The notes under the pieces are model-generated. The model had not been told where the DNA came from, made no database searches, and was given only the letters and a program-made list of their open reading frames with translations. A stretch of DNA of 64,000 bases, from contig JADZAQ010000074.1 in assembly GCA_020852555.1 (NCBI GenBank), forward strand, positions 1-64,000, in the 5' to 3' direction. This DNA is from Burkholderiales bacterium. GTDB lineage: Bacteria > Pseudomonadota > Gammaproteobacteria > Burkholderiales > Casimicrobiaceae. Positions 10,070 to 39,068 of the stretch are shown piece after piece (position 1 is the stretch's first letter; the number at the start of each line of letters is the position of its first letter). Made by a program: the position numbers and the translations under genes.

Positions 10070-10834
10070 ATGGTTCGCTACGATTTCTGCAGGGCCCTCG
10101 CCCGCGACGCCGGGAAGCTCGCGCACACCGCGTTCGGCACTTCGGCGGTGTCGCTCAAGGGCCGTCACGACGTGGTGACCGAGATGGATCGCAAGGTGGA
10201 GCGCTTCATTCGCGCCGCACTCGCCAAGCGCTTTCCCGACGATGCCATCATCGGCGAGGAGGACGGCGGCACCAGCGGCGAGCGGTTGTGGCTCATCGAT
10301 CCCATCGACGGCACCGCCAACTACGCGCGAGGCTTGCCGCGCTACTGCGTGTCGATCGGCTACGTCGAGCGCGGCGTGCCGCTGCTCGGCGTGATCTACG
10401 ATCCGTCGCACGACTGGCTCTACTCGGCGGCCAAGGGCGACGGCGCCTGGCTCGACGGCCGGCGGCTGGCGGTGAGCGACGCCGCGGACATCGGGCGGGC
10501 CACGGTCGAATGCGGGTGGTCGACGCGTCGCCCGGCGCAGGCCTACGTCGATCTCCTGGCGCGCGTGATGCACGCGGGGGCCGCGATCCGGCGGGCGGGA
10601 TCGGGCGCGCTGGGGCTCGCCGACGTCGCGGCCGGACGCGCCGAGGCGTACGCGGAGTTGCACATCAACGCCTGGGATTGCGCGGCAGGAATCGTGCTGG
10701 TCACCGAGGCGGGCGGGTTCGTCAGCGATTTCTTCGCGGGCGACGGGGTGCGTTCCGGCAATCCGCTGATTGCCACGAATGCCGCATTGGCAGGTAAGCT
10801 TGCGGAAATCGTCGGCGTACCCATCGTACGCTGA
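10070..10834 (+). CDS. inositol monophosphatase family protein (copy 1)
   Basis: A 254-aa Mg-dependent sugar/inositol phosphatase of the IMPase/FBPase superfamily. The family motifs are complete: DVVTEMD in the N-terminal part, metal ligands IIGEEDGG near residue 60, DPIDGTANY near 77, and the C-terminal WDCAAG near 202. It probably hydrolyses a phosphomonoester such as inositol phosphate or histidinol phosphate; the family is promiscuous. It lies directly downstream of the iol genes and 22 bases before an ABC receptor gene, which supports a role in dephosphorylating an imported compound. No clear SD is visible because the repeat runs up to the ATG. Confidence 0.88.
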   Translation: MVRYDFCRALARDAGKLAHTAFGTSAVSLKGRHDVVTEMDRKVERFIRAALAKRFPDDAIIGEEDGGTSGERLWLIDPIDGTANYARGLPRYCVSIGYVERGVPLLGVIYDPSHDWLYSAAKGDGAWLDGRRLAVSDAADIGRATVECGWSTRRPAQAYVDLLARVMHAGAAIRRAGSGALGLADVAAGRAEAYAELHINAWDCAAGIVLVTEAGGFVSDFFAGDGVRSGNPLIATNAALAGKLAEIVGVPIVR

Positions 10835-14052: not shown

Positions 14053-15105
14053 ATGGATCATCCGCAAGGCGGCGTCGTATTCGACCACGTGACCAAGCGC
14101 TACGGCGCGGTCGCCGCGGTCGACGACGTCTCGTTCACCGTCGCGCAGGGAGACCTCGTGACGCTGCTCGGGCCCTCGGGCTGCGGCAAGACGACGACGC
14201 TGCGCATGGTCGCCGGCCTGGAGCCGGTATCCGGAGGCCGGGTGCTCATCGGCGGCAACGACGTCACGCTGCGCGCCGCCAACGAGCGCGACGTGTCGAT
14301 GGTGTTCCAGTCCTACGCGCTCTTTCCGCACATGACCGTGCTGGAGAACGCCTCGTACGGGCCGCTCGCGATGGGCACCGACAAGGCGAAGGCGCGCGAG
14401 TTGGCGCGCGCGAAGCTTTCGATGCTGGGCCTCGGTGAGTTCGAGAACCGCTTGCCCTCCGAGCTCTCCGGCGGGCAGCAGCAGAGGGTGGCGGTGGCGC
14501 GCTCACTCGTCCTCGAGCCGGCGGTCCTGCTCTTCGACGAGCCGCTGTCGAACCTCGACGCGAAGCTCCGCCGGCGCGTGCGCGAGGAGATCCGCGAGCT
14601 GCAGCAGTCGCTCAAGCTCACCGTGCTGTACGTGACGCACGACCAGGAAGAGGCGCTCGCGGTGTCCGATCACATCATCGTCATGAACGGCGGGCGCATC
14701 GCCCAGGAAGGCCCGCCCGCCGACCTGTACGAGCGGCCGGTGAGCCGCTTCCTCGCCGACTTCATCGGGGACGCCAACCTCGTCGACGGCGAGATCGCGC
14801 CGACCGCCGGCGGGGCGAGCTTTGCCGCCGGCGGCGTCGCGCTGCCGGTGCGCGCGCACGGCGTGACGGCGGGCCCGGCGACGCTCGCGATCCGGCCGCA
14901 GCGGCTGGTGCTGGGCGAGCCGGGCCACGGCGTTCCGGGTAACGTCAAGCGCGTGGCCTATCTCGGCAGCCGGGTCGAGTACGTCGTCGGCACGGCGTGG
15001 GGTGAGCTGCTCGTCTTCGACGGTGACGTGCATCGCTTGCGCCAGCGCGACGAGGCAGTGGCGGTGACCTTCGCACCCGACGCCGCCATCGTCCTGCCGC
15101 GATGA
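14053..15105 (+). CDS. ABC transporter ATP-binding protein (AfuC/PotA-like)
   Basis: The cytoplasmic ATPase of the transporter, 350 aa. Walker A GPSGCGKT is near residue 39, the signature LSGGQQQRVAVARSL near 137, Walker B LLFDEP near 158, the D-loop SNLDAKLRR follows, and the switch histidine is in VTHDQEEA. A C-terminal TOBE-like regulatory region (about residues 240-350) is present, as in the MalK/PotA/FbpC group. It starts 18 bases after the permease and overlaps the next phosphatase gene by ATGA, so the phosphatase is coupled to the transporter. Confidence 0.92.
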   Translation: MDHPQGGVVFDHVTKRYGAVAAVDDVSFTVAQGDLVTLLGPSGCGKTTTLRMVAGLEPVSGGRVLIGGNDVTLRAANERDVSMVFQSYALFPHMTVLENASYGPLAMGTDKAKARELARAKLSMLGLGEFENRLPSELSGGQQQRVAVARSLVLEPAVLLFDEPLSNLDAKLRRRVREEIRELQQSLKLTVLYVTHDQEEALAVSDHIIVMNGGRIAQEGPPADLYERPVSRFLADFIGDANLVDGEIAPTAGGASFAAGGVALPVRAHGVTAGPATLAIRPQRLVLGEPGHGVPGNVKRVAYLGSRVEYVVGTAWGELLVFDGDVHRLRQRDEAVAVTFAPDAAIVLPR

Positions 15106-15908
15106 GTCCCGCCGCCGAGGTCGAGGCGCGCTACGCCGCTGCCCGGCGCATCGCACGGGCCGCGGGTGGGCGCGCGCTCGACTATTTCCACCGCCGCGAC
15201 GAACTCGCCGTCGAGACCAAGGGTGTCGCCGACTACGTGACGCGCGCCGATCGCGACGTCGAGCAGTTCATCCGCGGCGAACTGGCGGCGGCGTTCCCCG
15301 GCGACGGATTCTTGGGCGAGGAAACCGCGGCATCGTTCACCGGCCCCCTCGATCGCTGCTGGGTCGTCGATCCCATCGACGGCACGCACAATTTCCTGCG
15401 CGGCGTGCCGTACTGGAACGTCGCGATCGGCTACGTCGAGCACGGCGTGACGGTCGTGGGCGCCATCTGCGATCCCAACGCCGACGAGGTCCATCACGCA
15501 CGTCTCGGTGGCGGCGCGTGGGTCGATCGCCGTACGGGGCCGAGCGTGCGGCTGCACGTCGCCGCGACGACCAGCCTCGCCGGAAGCTACGTGACGCTCG
15601 GCCACCACGATCGCTCGTTCTCGGATCGCTATTTCGAGATCCGCCGCCGCATGATGGAAGCGAACGTCGCCATGCGCAACTTCGGCTCTGCCGCCCTGCA
15701 ACTCGCGCACGTCGCGAGCGGGCGTCTCGACGGCTTCGTCGAGATGGAGGTCTCGGCGTGGGATGCGGTCGCCGGCCTTCTGCTCGTCACCGAGGCCGGT
15801 GGCTGGCACGCGCCCTTCGCGCCTGTCGCGCCGACCGCGAAGGCGATGTGCATCGCCGGCGCACCCGGCATCGCGCACGAACTCGAACGGCTCGTGCGCG
15901 GCGCCTGA
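15102..15908 (+). CDS. inositol monophosphatase family protein (copy 2)
   Basis: A second IMPase-family phosphatase (268 aa) with FLGEETAAS near residue 70, DPIDGTHNF near 89 and SAWDAVAGLLL near 219, so all metal ligands appear intact. The ATGA overlap with the ATPase gene shows it is made together with the transporter. It differs substantially from copy 1, so the two may take different phosphate esters or stereoisomers. Only 2 bases separate its stop from the convergent peptidase gene. Confidence 0.88.
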   Translation: MSPAAEVEARYAAARRIARAAGGRALDYFHRRDELAVETKGVADYVTRADRDVEQFIRGELAAAFPGDGFLGEETAASFTGPLDRCWVVDPIDGTHNFLRGVPYWNVAIGYVEHGVTVVGAICDPNADEVHHARLGGGAWVDRRTGPSVRLHVAATTSLAGSYVTLGHHDRSFSDRYFEIRRRMMEANVAMRNFGSAALQLAHVASGRLDGFVEMEVSAWDAVAGLLLVTEAGGWHAPFAPVAPTAKAMCIAGAPGIAHELERLVRGA

Positions 15909-23245: not shown

Positions 23246-23524
23246 GTGATCCGAAGCTTCAAGCACAAGGGCTTGGCCAGGTTCTTCGAGACTGGCTCCA
23301 AGGCAGGGATCCAGTCCGCGCATGGCGAGCGATTGCGCCTGATCCTTGGTCGCCTGAACGCCGCGGTTCGAGTCGAAGATATGGGTCTTCCGGGTCTTCG
23401 CCTTCATCCCCTGAAGGGCGAACGGAAGGGCATCTGGGCTGTGTGGGTGAGCGGCAACTGGCGTGTCACCTTCCGGTTCGTAGGCGTGGACGCTGAAGTT
23501 GTCGATTACGAGGACTACCATTGA
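23246..23524 (+). CDS. higB: HigB-type toxin (RelE superfamily)
   Basis: A 92-aa small basic protein that opens with the HigB motif [20 protein letters not shown]. It ends with [23 protein letters not shown], the C-terminal pattern of this mRNA-cleaving family. It is likely a ribosome-dependent endoribonuclease held inactive by the downstream antitoxin. The start is GTG with no SD, in keeping with the leaderless promoter geometry. The toxin-first order is characteristic of higBA. Confidence 0.9.
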
Positions 23525-23537
23525 GAGGGCATCCACC

Positions 23538-23822
23538 ATGCGTATGCACAACCCCCCGCACCCCGGGGAGATTCTCAAGTCGCTGTGCCTCGAACCCCTC
23601 GGAGTCAGCGTCACCGATGCGGCGGAAGCTCTAGGGGTGAGCCGCAAGACGCTGTCCTCGATCCTCAACGGTCGAGCCGGCATCAGCCCGGAGATGGCTA
23701 TTCGGCTGTCGATCGCGTTCGATACCACTGCCGAGAGCTGGCTCAGGCAGCAGACGCAGTTCGATCTCTGGCACGCAGAGCGATCCCGCAAGCGGCTTCG
23801 AGTGACGCGTCTCGCGGCGTAG
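23538..23822 (+). CDS. higA: HigA-type antitoxin (XRE-family, HTH)
   Basis: A 94-aa protein beginning [15 protein letters not shown], the HigA hallmark. A helix-turn-helix follows ([21 protein letters not shown]), then the conserved [19 protein letters not shown]. It neutralises HigB and should repress the operon by binding the inverted repeat in the promoter. The start at 23538, 13 bases after higB, replaces the track's 23499, which lies inside higB. Confidence 0.93.
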
Positions 23823-31410: not shown

Positions 31411-34371
31411 GTGGATCACGGGTGGCGAGCACGGCGCTTTGCATGCGCGCTGGGCAGCGCGGCAGCGCTCGCATCGGCACCCGCGGCCGCGCTCGGTGTC
31501 GCGACCATCGTCGACGACCCCTACGGGTCGGTCACGGTCCAGGGGGCGACGCTTTCCGGCAACGTGGTCACCGGCTGGCAGACCAACGTCGTCATCCAGC
31601 TGGGCGCCGTCGCCGGCGATGGCGTCTCGCTGGCCCGGATCGATTTTGCCGACCTCGACCTGCCGGCCGGGACCACGCTCACCGTGCGCGCCGGCGCGGC
31701 GGGGCAGGGGGTCGTGCTGCGCAATGCGGGTGCGGGCGCGAGCACGATCGCCGGAGCGCTGCGCTTCGAGGCGGCCTACGGTCCGGCCTTTCGGGTGCAG
31801 GTGCAAGACCGCCACGGGCTCACCATCGCGGACAGCGGGCGCGTGGTGACGAGCGCCATCCTGACCGTGTCGTCGCTTGGCGCGACGTGGACCGAAGGCG
31901 GTGTGCTCGCCAACCACGGGCTCGTGCAGGGTGACGCGCAGCTTCGGCTGACCGGCGGGCGCGTGACCGGCGGCGGGCGCTTCGTCGGCAACGACATCCA
32001 CGTCGCCACCTTCGGCCACGCCAATAACCCCGTCAACGGCAATTACTTCCTGTCGAACGGCCTGCAGCTATGGCCGAGCTCGGGCAATTCGGTGACGCTG
32101 TCGCTGACGCACTACGGCGCCACGCCGCAGGTGCTGAACTTCGCGATCAACGGCGACGCGCGGGTGTCGATGCCCTCGGCGTGGCCGGCGGGATACTTCG
32201 CACCGGGCAACAGCCTGCCGGCGCTGCCGGGCGAGGTGCGTGCGTCGGGTGCCGGCAATCCCGCGCACGGTGCGAGCGGCATCATCGTGCAGGCGACCGG
32301 CACGCTCACCCTCGGCGGAGGTGCGAGCAACGACCTCGTGCTGGCCGGCGGCGTGGTGCTCAAGGCCGGCGGCACGCTCGACGTGAACGGCGTCGCCATC
32401 GTCAACGGCTGGACGCTCGCCGGCGAGTCGTTCCAGGGCGTCAATCTGGAAGCGCCGCGCATCACGAGCAGCAACGGTCCGCTTCGCGTCTACACCAACA
32501 ACCGTAACTGGGCCAACTTCAGCACGTACCCGTACGCGCCGGTGCGCACGTGGCAGTTCCTGCCGCAAGCCGATGGAAGCGCGCGGTACGTCGCGGCCGA
32601 TGCAGTGGCACCGCACCTCAATCCATACGCCGTGCTGGTCAACGCCGCTGCGCGCGGCGAATGCTGGGCGTGCCTCGTCGACATGCGCTCGATCGACATG
32701 CACGCGCCCCTGGAAACGCGCCAGGACGCGGCGCGTTTCCTGCGCCAGGCGACCTTTGGCGCCACCCGCGACGACATCGAGGCGCTGGTGCGCGAAGGCT
32801 ACGAGGCGTGGCTCGCCCGGCAGTTCGCGCTGCCTATCGTTTCGCACGTCGCCATGGTCGAGGCGGATCCCTACCTCGTCGACAGCGCCTGGTACGTCAC
32901 CAACCAGTCGATCTGGAAGCAGTTCTTCACCGGCGAGGACCAGTTGCGCCAGCGGGTGGGTTACGCACTGTCGCAGATCTACGTCGTATCGTTCGCGAAC
33001 GGGTTCGTCGCCAATGCGCCCTGCGGCGCCGCCGGCTACCTCGACACGCTCAATCGCCACGCCTTCGGCAACTGGCGCGACCTCCTGCGCGACGTGACGC
33101 TGCATCCGCTCATGGGTGAGTACCTGTCGATGAAGGAGAGCGCCAAGGCCGACCTGGTGCTGAGGACGCAGCCCGACGAGAACTACGCGCGCGAAGTGAT
33201 GCAGCTCTTCTCGATCGGGCTCGTGCAACTCGACCCCGGCGGCACGCCGCGGCTCGATGCCAGCGGCAAGGGCATCCCGACGTTCTCCGAGGCGACCGTC
33301 AAGGGCTTCGCGAAGGCGCTCTCCGGCTGGACCTTCGGCGGGCAGGATCAGGCGAAGCCGTGGCGCTGGCTCTATCCCGACATCTGGGACGAGGACCCGG
33401 TGCTCGCGGTGCGCAAGGGCTGCGCCGCGTGGACCCGGCCGATGGAGCCCTGGCTCGCGCCATTCGCCTCCGTCGACGGCACGCGGCTCATCGCCGGACC
33501 CGCCCATGATCAGGGCGTGAAGCAACTCCTCGCCTACCCCGGCGCGCCCCACGCGACGCTCCCGGCGAACCAGGCGCCGGCCACGGACCTCGACCACGCC
33601 ATCGAGAACGTCTTTCGCCACCCCAACGTCGGCCCGTTCATCGGCAAGCAACTCATCCAGCGGCTCGTCATGTCGAACCCCAGCCCCGCGTACGTCGCGC
33701 GCGTCGCGCAGGCTTTCGCCGACAACGGCAGCGGCGTGCGCGGCGACTTGCAGGCGGTGCTTCGCGCCGTGCTGCTCGATCCCGAGGCGCGCAGCCTCGC
33801 CGCGCGCGACGCGCCCACGTTCGGGAAGCTCGCCGAGCCGGTGGTGCGCTTCGTGCAGCTCCATCGAGCCTTCGCAGCGAAGAAAGCGAACGGCTACTAC
33901 GACCTGCGCGGTGGTCTCAACGCCCCGACGCAGCTCAGCCAAAGTCCGCTCTTCGCGCCGTCGGTGTTCAATTTCTACCACCCCGACTACATGCCGGCGG
34001 GGCCGCTCACGCAGCACGGACTGGTCGGCCCCGAGTTCGAGATCGCGAGCAGCGCGGCGATTTCGGGCTTTGCCGAGTTCACGAAGACCGACATCATCGA
34101 TGGCTTCGCGCACGGCAGTCGCGACCCCGCCGATCGGATCGTCCCCGATTACGCGTACTACGCGATGCTGGCGAGCGACCCCGCGGCGCTGGTCGACGAG
34201 CTCGATCTCGTCCTCACCGGCAGCGCGCTGAGCGACGAGGCGCGGATGCGGATCGTCCAGTCGATCGGCATGATCACGGTGAGCGGCGACGCGCTGGCGC
34301 AGGGCCGCGAGCGGGTGCGCATCGCGCTGTGGCTCATCGCCAATACGCCCGATTACCTCGTGGAGCGCTGA
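31411..34371 (+). CDS. secreted beta-helix / DUF1800 protein
   Basis: A protein of about 986 aa with two visible parts. After a signal peptide (MDHGWRARR, then an alanine-rich core ending ASAPAAA) comes a region of roughly 380 residues. It is rich in short G/T/V/N repeats such as GALRF, GGRVTGGGRFVGN and GGTLDVNG, like filamentous-haemagglutinin-type beta-helices. From about residue 430 a DUF1800 domain begins (DAARFLRQATFGATRDDIEAL) and runs to the end. Function of DUF1800 is not established. GTG 31411 follows GGGGAGG by a short 4-base gap; ATG 31369 is the alternative. It is 6 bases before the DUF1501 gene, its usual partner. Confidence 0.75.
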   Translation: MDHGWRARRFACALGSAAALASAPAAALGVATIVDDPYGSVTVQGATLSGNVVTGWQTNVVIQLGAVAGDGVSLARIDFADLDLPAGTTLTVRAGAAGQGVVLRNAGAGASTIAGALRFEAAYGPAFRVQVQDRHGLTIADSGRVVTSAILTVSSLGATWTEGGVLANHGLVQGDAQLRLTGGRVTGGGRFVGNDIHVATFGHANNPVNGNYFLSNGLQLWPSSGNSVTLSLTHYGATPQVLNFAINGDARVSMPSAWPAGYFAPGNSLPALPGEVRASGAGNPAHGASGIIVQATGTLTLGGGASNDLVLAGGVVLKAGGTLDVNGVAIVNGWTLAGESFQGVNLEAPRITSSNGPLRVYTNNRNWANFSTYPYAPVRTWQFLPQADGSARYVAADAVAPHLNPYAVLVNAAARGECWACLVDMRSIDMHAPLETRQDAARFLRQATFGATRDDIEALVREGYEAWLARQFALPIVSHVAMVEADPYLVDSAWYVTNQSIWKQFFTGEDQLRQRVGYALSQIYVVSFANGFVANAPCGAAGYLDTLNRHAFGNWRDLLRDVTLHPLMGEYLSMKESAKADLVLRTQPDENYAREVMQLFSIGLVQLDPGGTPRLDASGKGIPTFSEATVKGFAKALSGWTFGGQDQAKPWRWLYPDIWDEDPVLAVRKGCAAWTRPMEPWLAPFASVDGTRLIAGPAHDQGVKQLLAYPGAPHATLPANQAPATDLDHAIENVFRHPNVGPFIGKQLIQRLVMSNPSPAYVARVAQAFADNGSGVRGDLQAVLRAVLLDPEARSLAARDAPTFGKLAEPVVRFVQLHRAFAAKKANGYYDLRGGLNAPTQLSQSPLFAPSVFNFYHPDYMPAGPLTQHGLVGPEFEIASSAAISGFAEFTKTDIIDGFAHGSRDPADRIVPDYAYYAMLASDPAALVDELDLVLTGSALSDEARMRIVQSIGMITVSGDALAQGRERVRIALWLIANTPDYLVER

Positions 34372-34377
34372 CCGGCG

Positions 34378-35847
34378 ATGACGACCCGTCACCTTGTCCA
34401 TGGCGGCCGCCGTCGCTTCCTGCGGGTGATGGGCGGCATCGCCGGCTTGCCGCTGGTCGGCGCGCTGAGCGAGGCGGCGCTCGCCGCCGGACCGTTCAAC
34501 GACTACCGCGCGCTCGTCTGCGTGTTCCTGTACGGCGGCAACGACGCGCACAACATGGTCGTGCCGCTCGATGCCCGCTATCCGCTCTACGCGGCCAACC
34601 GCGGGCCGCTTGCGCTGCCGCGCGCGGCGCTGCAGGCGACGTCGATCACCGACCCCGTGCAGGGGCCCTTCGCGCTGCACCCGCGGATGACGCGCAGCGC
34701 CGCTCTCTTCGGCGCCGGCAAGCTCGCCGTCGTCTCGAACGTCGGCGTCCTCCTGCGACCGACGACCAAGGCGGACTACGACCGCAACGTCGGCCTGCCG
34801 CCCCAGCTCTTCTCGCACGATGACCAGCAGGAGAGCTGGAGCACCTGCACGCCGGGGTCGCTCACCAAAGAGGGCTGGGGTGGGCGCTTCGCCGATCTCC
34901 TGCAGGCGTCGGCGACCTCCGGGCCGATGCCGATCGGAGTGACGACCGGCGCTTCCGGCGTCTTCTTCAAGGGCTTCCAGACGAGCGCACAGGAGGTTGC
35001 CGCGTATCGCTCGGCAACGGTGCCGATCGTGCAGCGGATTCGGGCCTTGCGCGATGGTGACGCGCTCGCCAGGCCGCAGGAGGCGTACCAGAGCCTCATC
35101 ACCGCGCCGCGCACGAATCTGCTGCAACAGCAGTACGGGGAGATGGCGGCGCGGGCCGTCGCCGGCAACGAGTTCGTGCTGGGGGCGCTGTACAGCGGCC
35201 CCGATGGCAAGGGCCGCTACCAGGAGCGCTTTCCCCTGGCGACCGTGTTTCCCGAAGGCAATCCGCTCGCCGCGCAATTGCGCTCGGTGGCGATGCTGAT
35301 CGCCGGCCGGCAGGCGCTCGGGGTCAAGCGACAGATCTTCTTTGTCGCTGTCGGCGGGTCGTTCGATACCCACAGCAACCAGTTCGACGCGACGTACAGC
35401 GCGCTGCGGCCTGGCGCGGCGGACCCCGTGATTCTGTACGGCACGCACGCCGACCTGCTCCTGCAAGTCGACACCGCGGTGCAGGCGTTCCACGACGCCA
35501 CCGTCGAACTCGGCGTGCACGAGCGCGTCACCACGTTCACCGCATCCGACTTCGGCCGTACGTTCACCTCGAACGGCAAGGGTTCCGATCACGGTTGGGG
35601 CGCGCACCACCTCGTCGTTGGGGGCGCCGTGAAGGGCGGGCGAATCTACGGGACGTTCCACAACGCGCTCCTCGGCACCGCCAATCCTGTCGATGCCGAG
35701 CAGGGGCGCCTCATCCCCGATTTCGGCGTCGACCAGTACGCGGCCACGCTCGCCACGTGGTTCGGCGCATCGGGATCCGACCTGGGCGCGGTGTTCCCCA
35801 ATCTCGGCAATTTCGGTGCGGCGAACCTGGGATTCATGCAGGGCTGA
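34378..35847 (+). CDS. DUF1501 family protein with Tat-like signal
   Basis: A 489-aa protein starting with a twin-arginine leader (GRRRFLRVMGG, hydrophobic stretch, cleavage near ALAAG), so it is probably folded in the cytoplasm and exported by Tat. The body has the DUF1501 pattern: VFLYGGNDAHNMVVPLD, GGSFDTHSNQ and the C-terminal TASDFGRTFTSNGKGSDHGWG. These metal-ligand-like motifs recall sulfatase/alkaline-phosphatase-fold proteins. Activity is unknown. DUF1501 and DUF1800 genes commonly occur as neighbours, as here with 6 bases between. Confidence 0.82.
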   Translation: MTTRHLVHGGRRRFLRVMGGIAGLPLVGALSEAALAAGPFNDYRALVCVFLYGGNDAHNMVVPLDARYPLYAANRGPLALPRAALQATSITDPVQGPFALHPRMTRSAALFGAGKLAVVSNVGVLLRPTTKADYDRNVGLPPQLFSHDDQQESWSTCTPGSLTKEGWGGRFADLLQASATSGPMPIGVTTGASGVFFKGFQTSAQEVAAYRSATVPIVQRIRALRDGDALARPQEAYQSLITAPRTNLLQQQYGEMAARAVAGNEFVLGALYSGPDGKGRYQERFPLATVFPEGNPLAAQLRSVAMLIAGRQALGVKRQIFFVAVGGSFDTHSNQFDATYSALRPGAADPVILYGTHADLLLQVDTAVQAFHDATVELGVHERVTTFTASDFGRTFTSNGKGSDHGWGAHHLVVGGAVKGGRIYGTFHNALLGTANPVDAEQGRLIPDFGVDQYAATLATWFGASGSDLGAVFPNLGNFGAANLGFMQG

Positions 35848-35850
35848 GCC

Positions 35851-37059
35851 GTGGTGCGGTCGACGCCTCCTTCGTCGGCATTGCAAGGCGCGAGCCGCTT
35901 GATCATCGAAGCGGTCGTTGGCGTCACCGACGTCGTCGAGTCGATGCATCGCAACGTTTCGGGGCTTGCCCCGATCGTCGGCCCGTCTCGCCCGGGCGGT
36001 ACCCGCGGCATCACCGGATTGGTCTACCGCAGCGTGCGCGGCGTCTCGCGAGCGGTTGGCGTCGGACTCGACGTCGCCTTGGCGCAACTCGTGCCGCTCG
36101 TGCCGATCCGGCGCTCTTCACTTCGAAGCGAGGCGGTGCTGGCGGCGCTCAACGGCGTACTGGGCGACTACCTCGTCGCTTCGCACAACCCGTTGGCGAT
36201 CCCGATGCAGTTGCGCATCGGCGGCTCTCCGCTGACGCTCGAGCGACAGGCGCTGGCCGGAGCCATCCCGCACCCCGGTGGCAGGCTGATCGTCCTGGTG
36301 CACGGCCTGTGCATGAGCGATCGGCAGTGGCGCCGCAAGGGGCACGACCACGGCGCGTCGCTCGCCCGCGCGCATGGCGCCACGCCGCTGTATCTGCGCT
36401 ACAACACCGGTTTGCACATTTCGGAGAACGGCCGGGCCTTCGCCGACCTCCTCGAACAACTGGTGGATGCGTGGCCCGTGCCGGTCCGCGAGCTCGTCGT
36501 CATCGGTCACAGCATGGGTGGACTGGTGGCACGCAGTGCGGGTCACTACGCCGCGCAGGCCGGTCACGCCTGGCCACGGCGTCTCAAGAAGCTCGTATTC
36601 CTGGGCACGCCGCACCACGGAGCGGCGCTGGAACGCACCGGGAACTGGGTGGAAATGCTGCTGGGGATGAGTCCGTACACCGCGCCGTTCGCCCGCCTCG
36701 GCGCGCTGCGCAGCGCCGGCGTGAAGGATCTGCGCTTCGGGAATGTCGTCGACGAGGATTGGAATGGCGCGAGTGTCACGCACCCGCGCGATGCGCGAAC
36801 GCAGGTGCTGCTTCCCCGCGGCGTGCGCTGCTTCGCGATCGCGGGCACCACGCAAGCGCAACCCGGCCGCGGCTCGGCGCGCCCGCGCGGCGATGGCTTG
36901 GTGGCGGTGAGGAGCGCGCTGGGCCAGCACGAAGATGCCGCGCGGTCGCTGCCGATCCCGGCATCACGCCAGCATGTGTGCTACGGCGTCGGCCATCTCG
37001 ATCTGCTGAGCAGTCGCGAGGCATTCGAGCGAATCGATCGCTGGTTGCGCGGCGACTGA
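35851..37059 (+). CDS. alpha/beta hydrolase, lipase/esterase-like
   Basis: A 402-aa protein with an N-terminal helical region of about 130 residues, then an alpha/beta hydrolase domain. The oxyanion motif LVHGLCMSD is near residue 150, the nucleophile elbow GHSMGG near 218 and the likely catalytic histidine in GVGHLDLL near 381. The FLGTPHHGAAL motif is typical of PGAP1/triacylglycerol-lipase-like proteins. It starts with GTG 3 bases after the DUF1501 stop and is probably in the same operon. No signal peptide is evident. Confidence 0.82.
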   Translation: MVRSTPPSSALQGASRLIIEAVVGVTDVVESMHRNVSGLAPIVGPSRPGGTRGITGLVYRSVRGVSRAVGVGLDVALAQLVPLVPIRRSSLRSEAVLAALNGVLGDYLVASHNPLAIPMQLRIGGSPLTLERQALAGAIPHPGGRLIVLVHGLCMSDRQWRRKGHDHGASLARAHGATPLYLRYNTGLHISENGRAFADLLEQLVDAWPVPVRELVVIGHSMGGLVARSAGHYAAQAGHAWPRRLKKLVFLGTPHHGAALERTGNWVEMLLGMSPYTAPFARLGALRSAGVKDLRFGNVVDEDWNGASVTHPRDARTQVLLPRGVRCFAIAGTTQAQPGRGSARPRGDGLVAVRSALGQHEDAARSLPIPASRQHVCYGVGHLDLLSSREAFERIDRWLRGD

Positions 37060-37512: not shown

Positions 37513-38331
37513 CTATCCCTGCCCCGGCCGCTGGCGGGACGCGGGGGGTGCATCCGACGGAGCCATCGGTGGTCGCGGCCCCGGCGCCGGTGCTACCGAT
37601 GGCGGCGCCGGTGGTCGTCCGCTCGGCGGCGAGAGCGGTGGGCGCGGGCCGGGTCCCGGCGATACCGACGGCGGTGACGGAGGGCGTGGCGGCCGACCCT
37701 CCGGCGGTCCGACGGGCGGTCGCGGTCCGGGCCCGGGTGAAACCGGCGGAGGCGGCGGCATCGGCCGTGACGGCGGTCGCACCGACGGCGGCGGTGGATT
37801 GGGTCGTGGCGGTGGCCGCACGCTCGGCGGGGGCGGCGGGCGGGCACCCGGTGGCGGGGGCCGGACCGTCGGCGGCGGGCGCCAACCGGGCGGCGGCGGA
37901 CGCCATACCGGCGGTGGCGGCGGCGGCGGGCGTCCGAACCAGTAGTTGCGGTTGTCCCACCACGGGCGATGGCGATAGAACGAATCCCAGTACGTCACGA
38001 TCGAGAAAGTAACGAGCGGGATGCCGAGCATCGGCCCACCCTGGAAGATCGGCCACGGCTGGTTCTGGAAGCTGGTCGCGAGGTGCTGCGACCACACCCA
38101 GCCGCGTTGCGGTCCCCACGCGACATCGCACCAGCGCCAGCCGTCGAGGCAGCCGAATATCTGTACCCAGGTCCCGGCCGGCAGCCACGCGACGAGCGGA
38201 AACGAGCGGTCCGGACCCGCCCGCATGTTGACGGCTTCTGTGGTGAAGGCGTTCTGCGCGGTTGCCGCGATCGACAGCGACAGCGAAGCGGCGACGGCGA
38301 ACGTGCGAAGCAACGAGAGGAGCGGGCGCAT
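37513..38331 (-). CDS. secreted SH3-domain protein with proline-rich tail
   Basis: A 272-aa protein. The signal peptide (MRPLLSLLRTFAVAASLSLSIAATAQN) is followed by a bacterial SH3 domain (VNMRAGPDRSFPLVAWLPAG...GWRWCDVAWGPQRGWVWSQHL) at about residues 27-85. A short hydrophobic/aromatic linker leads to a tail of about 120 residues made almost wholly of proline, arginine, glycine and serine (PPPPG, RPPP, SPGPGPRPP units). It likely acts in the periplasm at the cell wall. I start at ATG 38331 instead of 38385 because it gives a clean signal peptide. The tail is repetitive and prone to length variation. Confidence 0.78.
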   Translation of the reverse strand: MRPLLSLLRTFAVAASLSLSIAATAQNAFTTEAVNMRAGPDRSFPLVAWLPAGTWVQIFGCLDGWRWCDVAWGPQRGWVWSQHLATSFQNQPWPIFQGGPMLGIPLVTFSIVTYWDSFYRHRPWWDNRNYWFGRPPPPPPPVWRPPPPGWRPPPTVRPPPPGARPPPPPSVRPPPRPNPPPPSVRPPSRPMPPPPPVSPGPGPRPPVGPPEGRPPRPPSPPSVSPGPGPRPPLSPPSGRPPAPPSVAPAPGPRPPMAPSDAPPASRQRPGQG

Positions 38332-38381
38332 CGCGCGACGATAGCAGGATTTCCGTGACCTGGTCGCGGGTGCGGCGATCG

Positions 38382-39068
38382 TCAACGGCCGCCGGCCGCC
38401 TCGATCACGTGCGCCATCTCGCGATAGCGTCTCGTCCGCGCGAGCTGGAATGGCGTCACGCCATCGCGGTCCGCGAGATTCACGTTGGCGCCACCCTCGA
38501 CGAGCGCGGCGAGCGTCGCCAGGTGGCGCGGGCCGCCGTCGCCCAGCACGATCGACTCGATCACCGCCGTCCAGCCGAGGTTGTTGACATGATCGAGCGG
38601 CGCACCGGCCGCAACGAGCCTGCGCACGACGTCGGCGTGACCGAGGTGCGCGGCCGCGATGAGCGCGGTGCCGTCGTAGCGGCTCGTCACGTTGGTCGCC
38701 TTGTTGCCGAGCTCCAGCGCGACGTCGAGCGTGGGCAGGTCGTCGGCGACCGCAGCGATGGTCACCATGTCGTAGCGGTCGGCGTCGAGCGCATTGGGGT
38801 TGGCGCCCGCGGCGACCAGCGCGCGCATGGCGCCGTGCTGCCGGGTGAAGGCGGCCACGATGAGCGGCGTGCGCCCCTTGGCATCGCGCGCGTCGACCTG
38901 GCTCCCCTGTGCCCCCAGCATGCCGATGGTGGCGAGGTCGCCCTTCACCGCCGCGGCGAACAGGCCGCGGTACGCCGCGATCTCGCTCGCGCTGGGTGCG
39001 ACCTGCGCCGGCGCGTTACCGGCGAGCACGAGCGCGACCCCGGCGCCGGCGGCGAGGCGTTTCAGCAC
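38382..39068 (-). CDS. periplasmic ankyrin-repeat protein
   Basis: A 228-aa protein with a short signal peptide (LKRLAAGAGVALVLAGNAPAQ) and about five ankyrin repeats, for example DAKGRTPLIVAAFTRQHGAM, YDGTALIAAAHLGHADVVRRLV and DRDGVTPFQLARTRR. It is probably a protein-binding scaffold. The GTG start at 39068 overlaps the stop of the upstream gene by 7 bases, so the two are coupled. The track's longer ORF (to 39470) is out of context and antisense-like in composition. Confidence 0.8.
   Translation of the reverse strand: MLKRLAAGAGVALVLAGNAPAQVAPSASEIAAYRGLFAAAVKGDLATIGMLGAQGSQVDARDAKGRTPLIVAAFTRQHGAMRALVAAGANPNALDADRYDMVTIAAVADDLPTLDVALELGNKATNVTSRYDGTALIAAAHLGHADVVRRLVAAGAPLDHVNNLGWTAVIESIVLGDGGPRHLATLAALVEGGANVNLADRDGVTPFQLARTRRYREMAHVIEAAGGR

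Follow-up and report, generated by a model that had tools for sequence, protein, structure and literature searches.

The DUF1800–DUF1501 gene pair is widespread yet without known function. One copy of it, in a 64,000-nucleotide stretch of DNA from a Burkholderiales bacterium (hereafter the window), raises the question of where and on what such a pair might act, and of what a long beta-helical module on its DUF1800 protein might contribute. The association of the two genes is already known; the TPS-like module on DUF1800 is the new feature of this uncharacterised pair.

Organization of the locus and the DUF1800–DUF1501 pair

An ORF check places three co-directional genes, P0001, P0002 and P0003, at 31411–37059 (+), as in the preliminary description. 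Codon-position GC is of the coding type in all three (GC3 = 0.89 in P0001, 0.89 in P0002 and 0.83 in P0003). P0001 (31411–34371, +; 986 aa) has a GTG start with the SD-like GGGGAGGTG ahead of it, and its product, a TPS-type beta-helix module joined to DUF1800, is predicted to be secreted. The candidate Sec-type signal peptide region (31411..31491, +), within which the KD19 maximum of the protein falls, consists of an arginine-rich start and a hydrophobic Ala/Leu stretch and ends at about AAALG. It is followed by the module of about 410 aa (aa ~28–436; 31492..32718, +), a predicted TPS-like beta-helix whose C-terminal cap contains PHLNxY and CWxC, and by the DUF1800 domain (PF08811; 32734..34368, +). 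P0002 (34378–35847, +; 489 aa, ATG start) encodes a DUF1501 protein (PF07394) that has an RRRFLR twin-arginine leader and resembles the alkaline phosphatase (AP) superfamily. P0003 (35851–37059, +; 402 aa) encodes an alpha/beta hydrolase (PF07819) with the motif GHSMGG, and its GTG start lies, as had been noted, 3 bases past the P0002 stop. The source genome (G000) comprises 3.83 Mb in 282 contigs and is 94% complete; the closest named relative found for it is the MAG Burkholderiales bacterium SJ757. An NCBIfam search gave nothing relevant, and a sequence search of solved structures with P0001 and P0002 gave nothing useful.

Elsewhere in the window, a HigB-like toxin gene (PF05015, 2.1e-19) overlaps an HTH antitoxin-type gene downstream of it (23246–23822, +), and two inositol-monophosphatase family genes (10070–10834 and 15102–15908, +) flank a set resembling an ABC transporter by sequence. 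The gene at 37513–38385 (−), near the hydrolase gene and an ABM gene, encodes a protein that combines an SH3_3 domain with a long proline-rich tail.

The DUF1800 match in P0001 spans aa 442–983 (E=1.5e-74, 252 bits against a cut-off of 26.1) and profile positions 1–418 of 419. In the family alignment, invariant residues fall within the ENxxRExxQLF and VFN motifs; in the AlphaFold model of P0001, most of DUF1800 lies below pLDDT 50. Motifs had led us to suspect a kinship of DUF1800 with the planctomycete PSD1 domain (PF07587); no DUF1800 member matched PSD1 in Pfam, and PSD1 had no matches in 200 genomes of the phylum and likewise none in the control genomes.

DUF1501 lies directly downstream of DUF1800 on the same strand in the window and at 28 of 28 relative loci (L007–L034), and it directly follows DUF1800 on all six plasmids analysed (6/6), which come from Alphaproteobacteria, Gammaproteobacteria and Acidobacteriota. 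Each of the two DUF1501 genes detected in G000 adjoins a DUF1800, and among 14 control genomes DUF1800 occurs in two and DUF1501 in the same two, one of them that of Caulobacter vibrioides. The pairing that the preliminary description had called common is thus borne out. In the sister species (G020), the pair is present and its first gene is 84% identical over all of P0001. Tandem arrays of two DUF1800–DUF1501 pairs occur in two relatives from the genus (L073 and L074); in L073 both DUF1800 proteins have a DUF5648-type N-terminus, by Pfam or by sequence. G000 also contains a third, partial DUF1800 (C149:24112–24450; L003, L038), an N-terminal match of about 105 positions with an internal stop; its contig yielded no gene in the search for DUF1501. 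Operons of chitin synthase, DUF1800 and DUF1501 have been reported from Dickeya, Pectobacterium and Agrobacterium vitis, with a Tat leader described and no function reported (PMC5122149), and COG5267 and COG4102 are classed as uncharacterised (PMC6946804).

The N-termini of other DUF1800 proteins are diverse, comprising Big_7/PKD (Ig/PKD), DUF5648, FG-GAP, dockerin I or TIG segments, or nothing recognised; the nearest DUF1800 relatives, 52–62% identical, have no match to the module. While adhesion-type segments are exchanged at the N-terminus, DUF1800 and DUF1501 stay together, which speaks for a site of action outside the cytoplasm and for a variable target.

The N-terminal module of P0001 and its relatives

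The N-terminal ~415 residues of P0001 matched no Pfam family. In the AlphaFold model, residues ~27–205 are all-beta, with block pLDDT mostly 79–94, whereas model quality varies over the remainder of the module. In a Foldseek search of the PDB, the TPS secretion domains of HxuA and HMW1 ranked first, ahead of full-length HxuA and then the EtpA secretion domain; haemolysin A came lower. The top matches have a probability of 1.00 and E values down to 1.2e-4. As modelled, the N-terminal module is thus a TPS-type beta-helix, in agreement with the haemagglutinin-like helix proposed earlier; structure prediction gave no sign of a different fold, the outcome that had been named as contradicting that proposal.

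By profile, the likeness is more distant. The Pfam TPS family (PF05860) gives no match in P0001, its best score for any module copy is 21.3 bits, under the cut-off of 33.5, and within G000 the profile matches solely the module copy on contig C140 (3.9e-4, under the Pfam cut-off). The NPNG motif of TPS domains has been described as crucial for folding and secretion (PMC5422565); at its position, the window copy has DRHG and the sister copy DGNG, and NPNG itself occurs only in the reprolysin-fused copies (L035/L039). In the cap, the alignment shows PHLN, a tyrosine and two cysteines to be invariant (PHLNxY...CxxC).

Further copies of the module form the C-termini of two secreted metalloproteases, each encoded in both G000 and the sister genome: a reprolysin-like protein (L035, L039) and a gametolysin-like/Big_3_5/Calx-beta protein (L036, L040). 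These metalloprotease-fused copies are 44–49% identical to the window copy, and orthologous copies are 77–81% identical between the two species, which indicates that all three module arrangements are older than the split of the species. The occurrence of one module on DUF1800 and on two metalloproteases in a single genome characterizes it as a portable extracellular module. Its distribution is narrow: among 22 genomes from the genus, the module profile detects it in four, and among 399 sampled genomes of the order in one. The profile of the C-terminal cap is confined to four of 64 genomes of the family and one of 274 of the class, and P0001 and its counterpart in the sister were the sole DUF1800 proteins found to carry the module. 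In one further genome (G048), two partial module copies (L044:1–1536 and L045:4945–7785) each stop at a contig end and at the same residue, in KING; this suggests near-identical copies collapsed in assembly.

A possible source of the module is encoded in the same genome. G000 contains a TpsA-like exoprotein (L112:39–2966, at the start of contig C220) whose N-terminus matches that of the module and whose C-terminus matches the C-terminal half of the module (hhalign probabilities 93 and 96, respectively), and we infer that the module derived from an exoprotein of this kind. In another genome (G447), the corresponding exoprotein adjoins an ShlB-type transporter (PF03865, 1.6e-10). In G000, a weak ShlB match, the only one, lies near the end of contig C48 (L115:12398–14014), and no TpsB gene was seen among the genes adjoining P0001. 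It is plausible that the C48 transporter and the C220 exoprotein are adjacent, possibly as one TPS system split by assembly. Overall, the anatomy of the locus, a portable TPS-like module plus DUF1800 plus DUF1501, is firm.

The DUF1501 protein and the neighbouring hydrolase

The DUF1501 match in P0002 covers profile positions 2–337 of 390 (E=1.1e-27, 97.7 bits against a cut-off of 27). Its leader, RRRFLR, fits the twin-arginine pattern RRxFL, and the arginine pair (R11 R12) is invariant in a 21-row DUF1501 alignment, in keeping with the Tat-type leader recognised previously. D56, S146-H147, D330-x-H332 and D404-H405, candidate ligands for a binuclear metal site of the AP type, are also invariant in this alignment. 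Among the Foldseek matches listed for the P0002 model, all carry names of the AP superfamily, the best structural neighbours being sulfatases, NPPs and EptC/MCR; these matches are weak (best E 1.8e-3, TM ~0.14–0.34), and residues 143–254 of the model are unreliable. No sulfatase family in Pfam matched P0002. DUF1501 therefore looks, by a weak structural match, like a member of the alkaline-phosphatase/sulfatase superfamily, and the phosphatase/sulfatase-like character first read from its motifs is supported to that extent.

P0003 matches the PGAP1-like alpha/beta hydrolases (PF07819, E=4.7e-12), and its GHSMGG fits GxSxG. The preliminary description took the three genes as a single system: the helix would bind an extracellular polymer, and DUF1501 and the lipase-like hydrolase would act on it. 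The 3-base spacing and the shared strand are consistent with this, and in three genomes (G001, G044 and G051) a P0003 homologue is encoded on the strand opposite to a pair, ~2 kb away. The same P0001 fusion exists in the sister species, where the flanking genes are the same but no hydrolase gene stands between DUF1501 and the ABM gene, and a search of the sister genome found no P0003 homologue, indicating that either the window gained the hydrolase or the sister lost it. Full-length homologues in genomes of the family are mostly on contigs other than that of the pair. In addition, P0003 has no signal-peptide-like start by sequence and is therefore unlikely to act on an extracellular polymer together with proteins that are exported; the enzyme is probably cytoplasmic. 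The three-gene set is thus not conserved, its reading as one system is largely refuted by the sister genome and has become very improbable, and the hydrolase, rejected as a third component, is a bystander neighbour outside the conserved system.

Possible roles of the pair and comparison with known systems

We consider it somewhat probable that the locus encodes a two-gene DUF1800–DUF1501 extracellular unit with an acquired attachment module, next to which the hydrolase is a neighbour. The module would be an attachment or display element that fixes the partner enzyme at the cell surface, the extracellular matrix or the substrate; by analogy, its role would equal that of the Ig/PKD, DUF5648, FG-GAP, dockerin or TIG segments on other DUF1800 proteins. 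More tentatively, and with less than even confidence, DUF1501, exported folded by Tat, may be a metal-dependent AP-superfamily-type hydrolase of phospho- or sulfo-esters, with the Sec-exported DUF1800 as an obligate partner that brings it to its target.

As the module of the window is N-terminal, a TPS domain there could instead be a secretion signal, which speaks against the attachment reading. P0001 would then be a genuine TpsA exoprotein, with the module as TPS secretion domain and DUF1800 as passenger, exported by a TpsB encoded elsewhere. The order of signal peptide, TPS-like helix and passenger fits the TpsA layout, the best Foldseek matches are specifically TPS secretion domains, and G000 does have the ShlB-type transporter gene and the TpsA-like exoprotein described above. 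However, no TpsB gene adjoins P0001, NPNG is retained in neither the window nor the sister copy, other DUF1800 proteins manage without the module, and in the proteases the module is C-terminal, where no classical N-terminal secretion signal is possible; we therefore regard this explanation as rather unlikely. Still less likely is that the pair serves to make or mature a polysaccharide of the cell's own surface instead of breaking down an external one: the chitin synthase operons (PMC5122149) point in this direction, but no chitin synthase was seen beside the window pair, and the neighbours of the pair vary by genome. A glycosyltransferase lies ~7 kb off on one Sphingomonas plasmid. It is also conceivable, if a long shot, that the helix is a portable secretion or display cassette usable at either end of enzymes unrelated to one another, through which the metalloproteases and DUF1800–DUF1501 of this genus would share one two-partner transporter or surface docking site. 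We still prefer to read the locus as an extracellular pair to which an attachment module has been added.

Compared with known systems, the window shares families, order and strand with the known DUF1800 (PF08811)–DUF1501 (PF07394) pair, and the Tat-type leader of P0002 with the chitin-synthase-linked pairs (PMC5122149); it differs from the former in the TPS-like N-terminal module of its DUF1800, and from the latter in that no chitin synthase was seen nearby. P0002 recalls the AP superfamily (sulfatases, nucleotide pyrophosphatases and EptC-MCR) in the Foldseek matches listed for its model and in its invariant residues (D, S-H, D-x-H and D-H), whereas the weak scores, the unreliable middle of the model and the missing Pfam sulfatase match set it apart. 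P0003 has the GxSxG nucleophile elbow and the Pfam match of PGAP1-like hydrolases, but carries an N-terminal extension of ~130 aa, conserved in the family homologues, and is not pair-linked.

The comparison with TpsA exoproteins and their TPS domain (HxuA, HMW1, EtpA; PF05860) is the closest for the module. P0001 resembles them in its signal-peptide-like start followed by a beta-helix, as judged by Foldseek, and departs from them in scoring under the Pfam TPS cut-off, in its degenerate NPNG and in having no adjoining TpsB. The metalloprotease-fused copies differ from TpsA in the C-terminal placement of the module, although the reprolysin-fused ones retain NPNG. A module shared with proteases in this way would be a TPS-type fold used outside its usual N-terminal secretion role, and gives a handle for the localisation of the pair.
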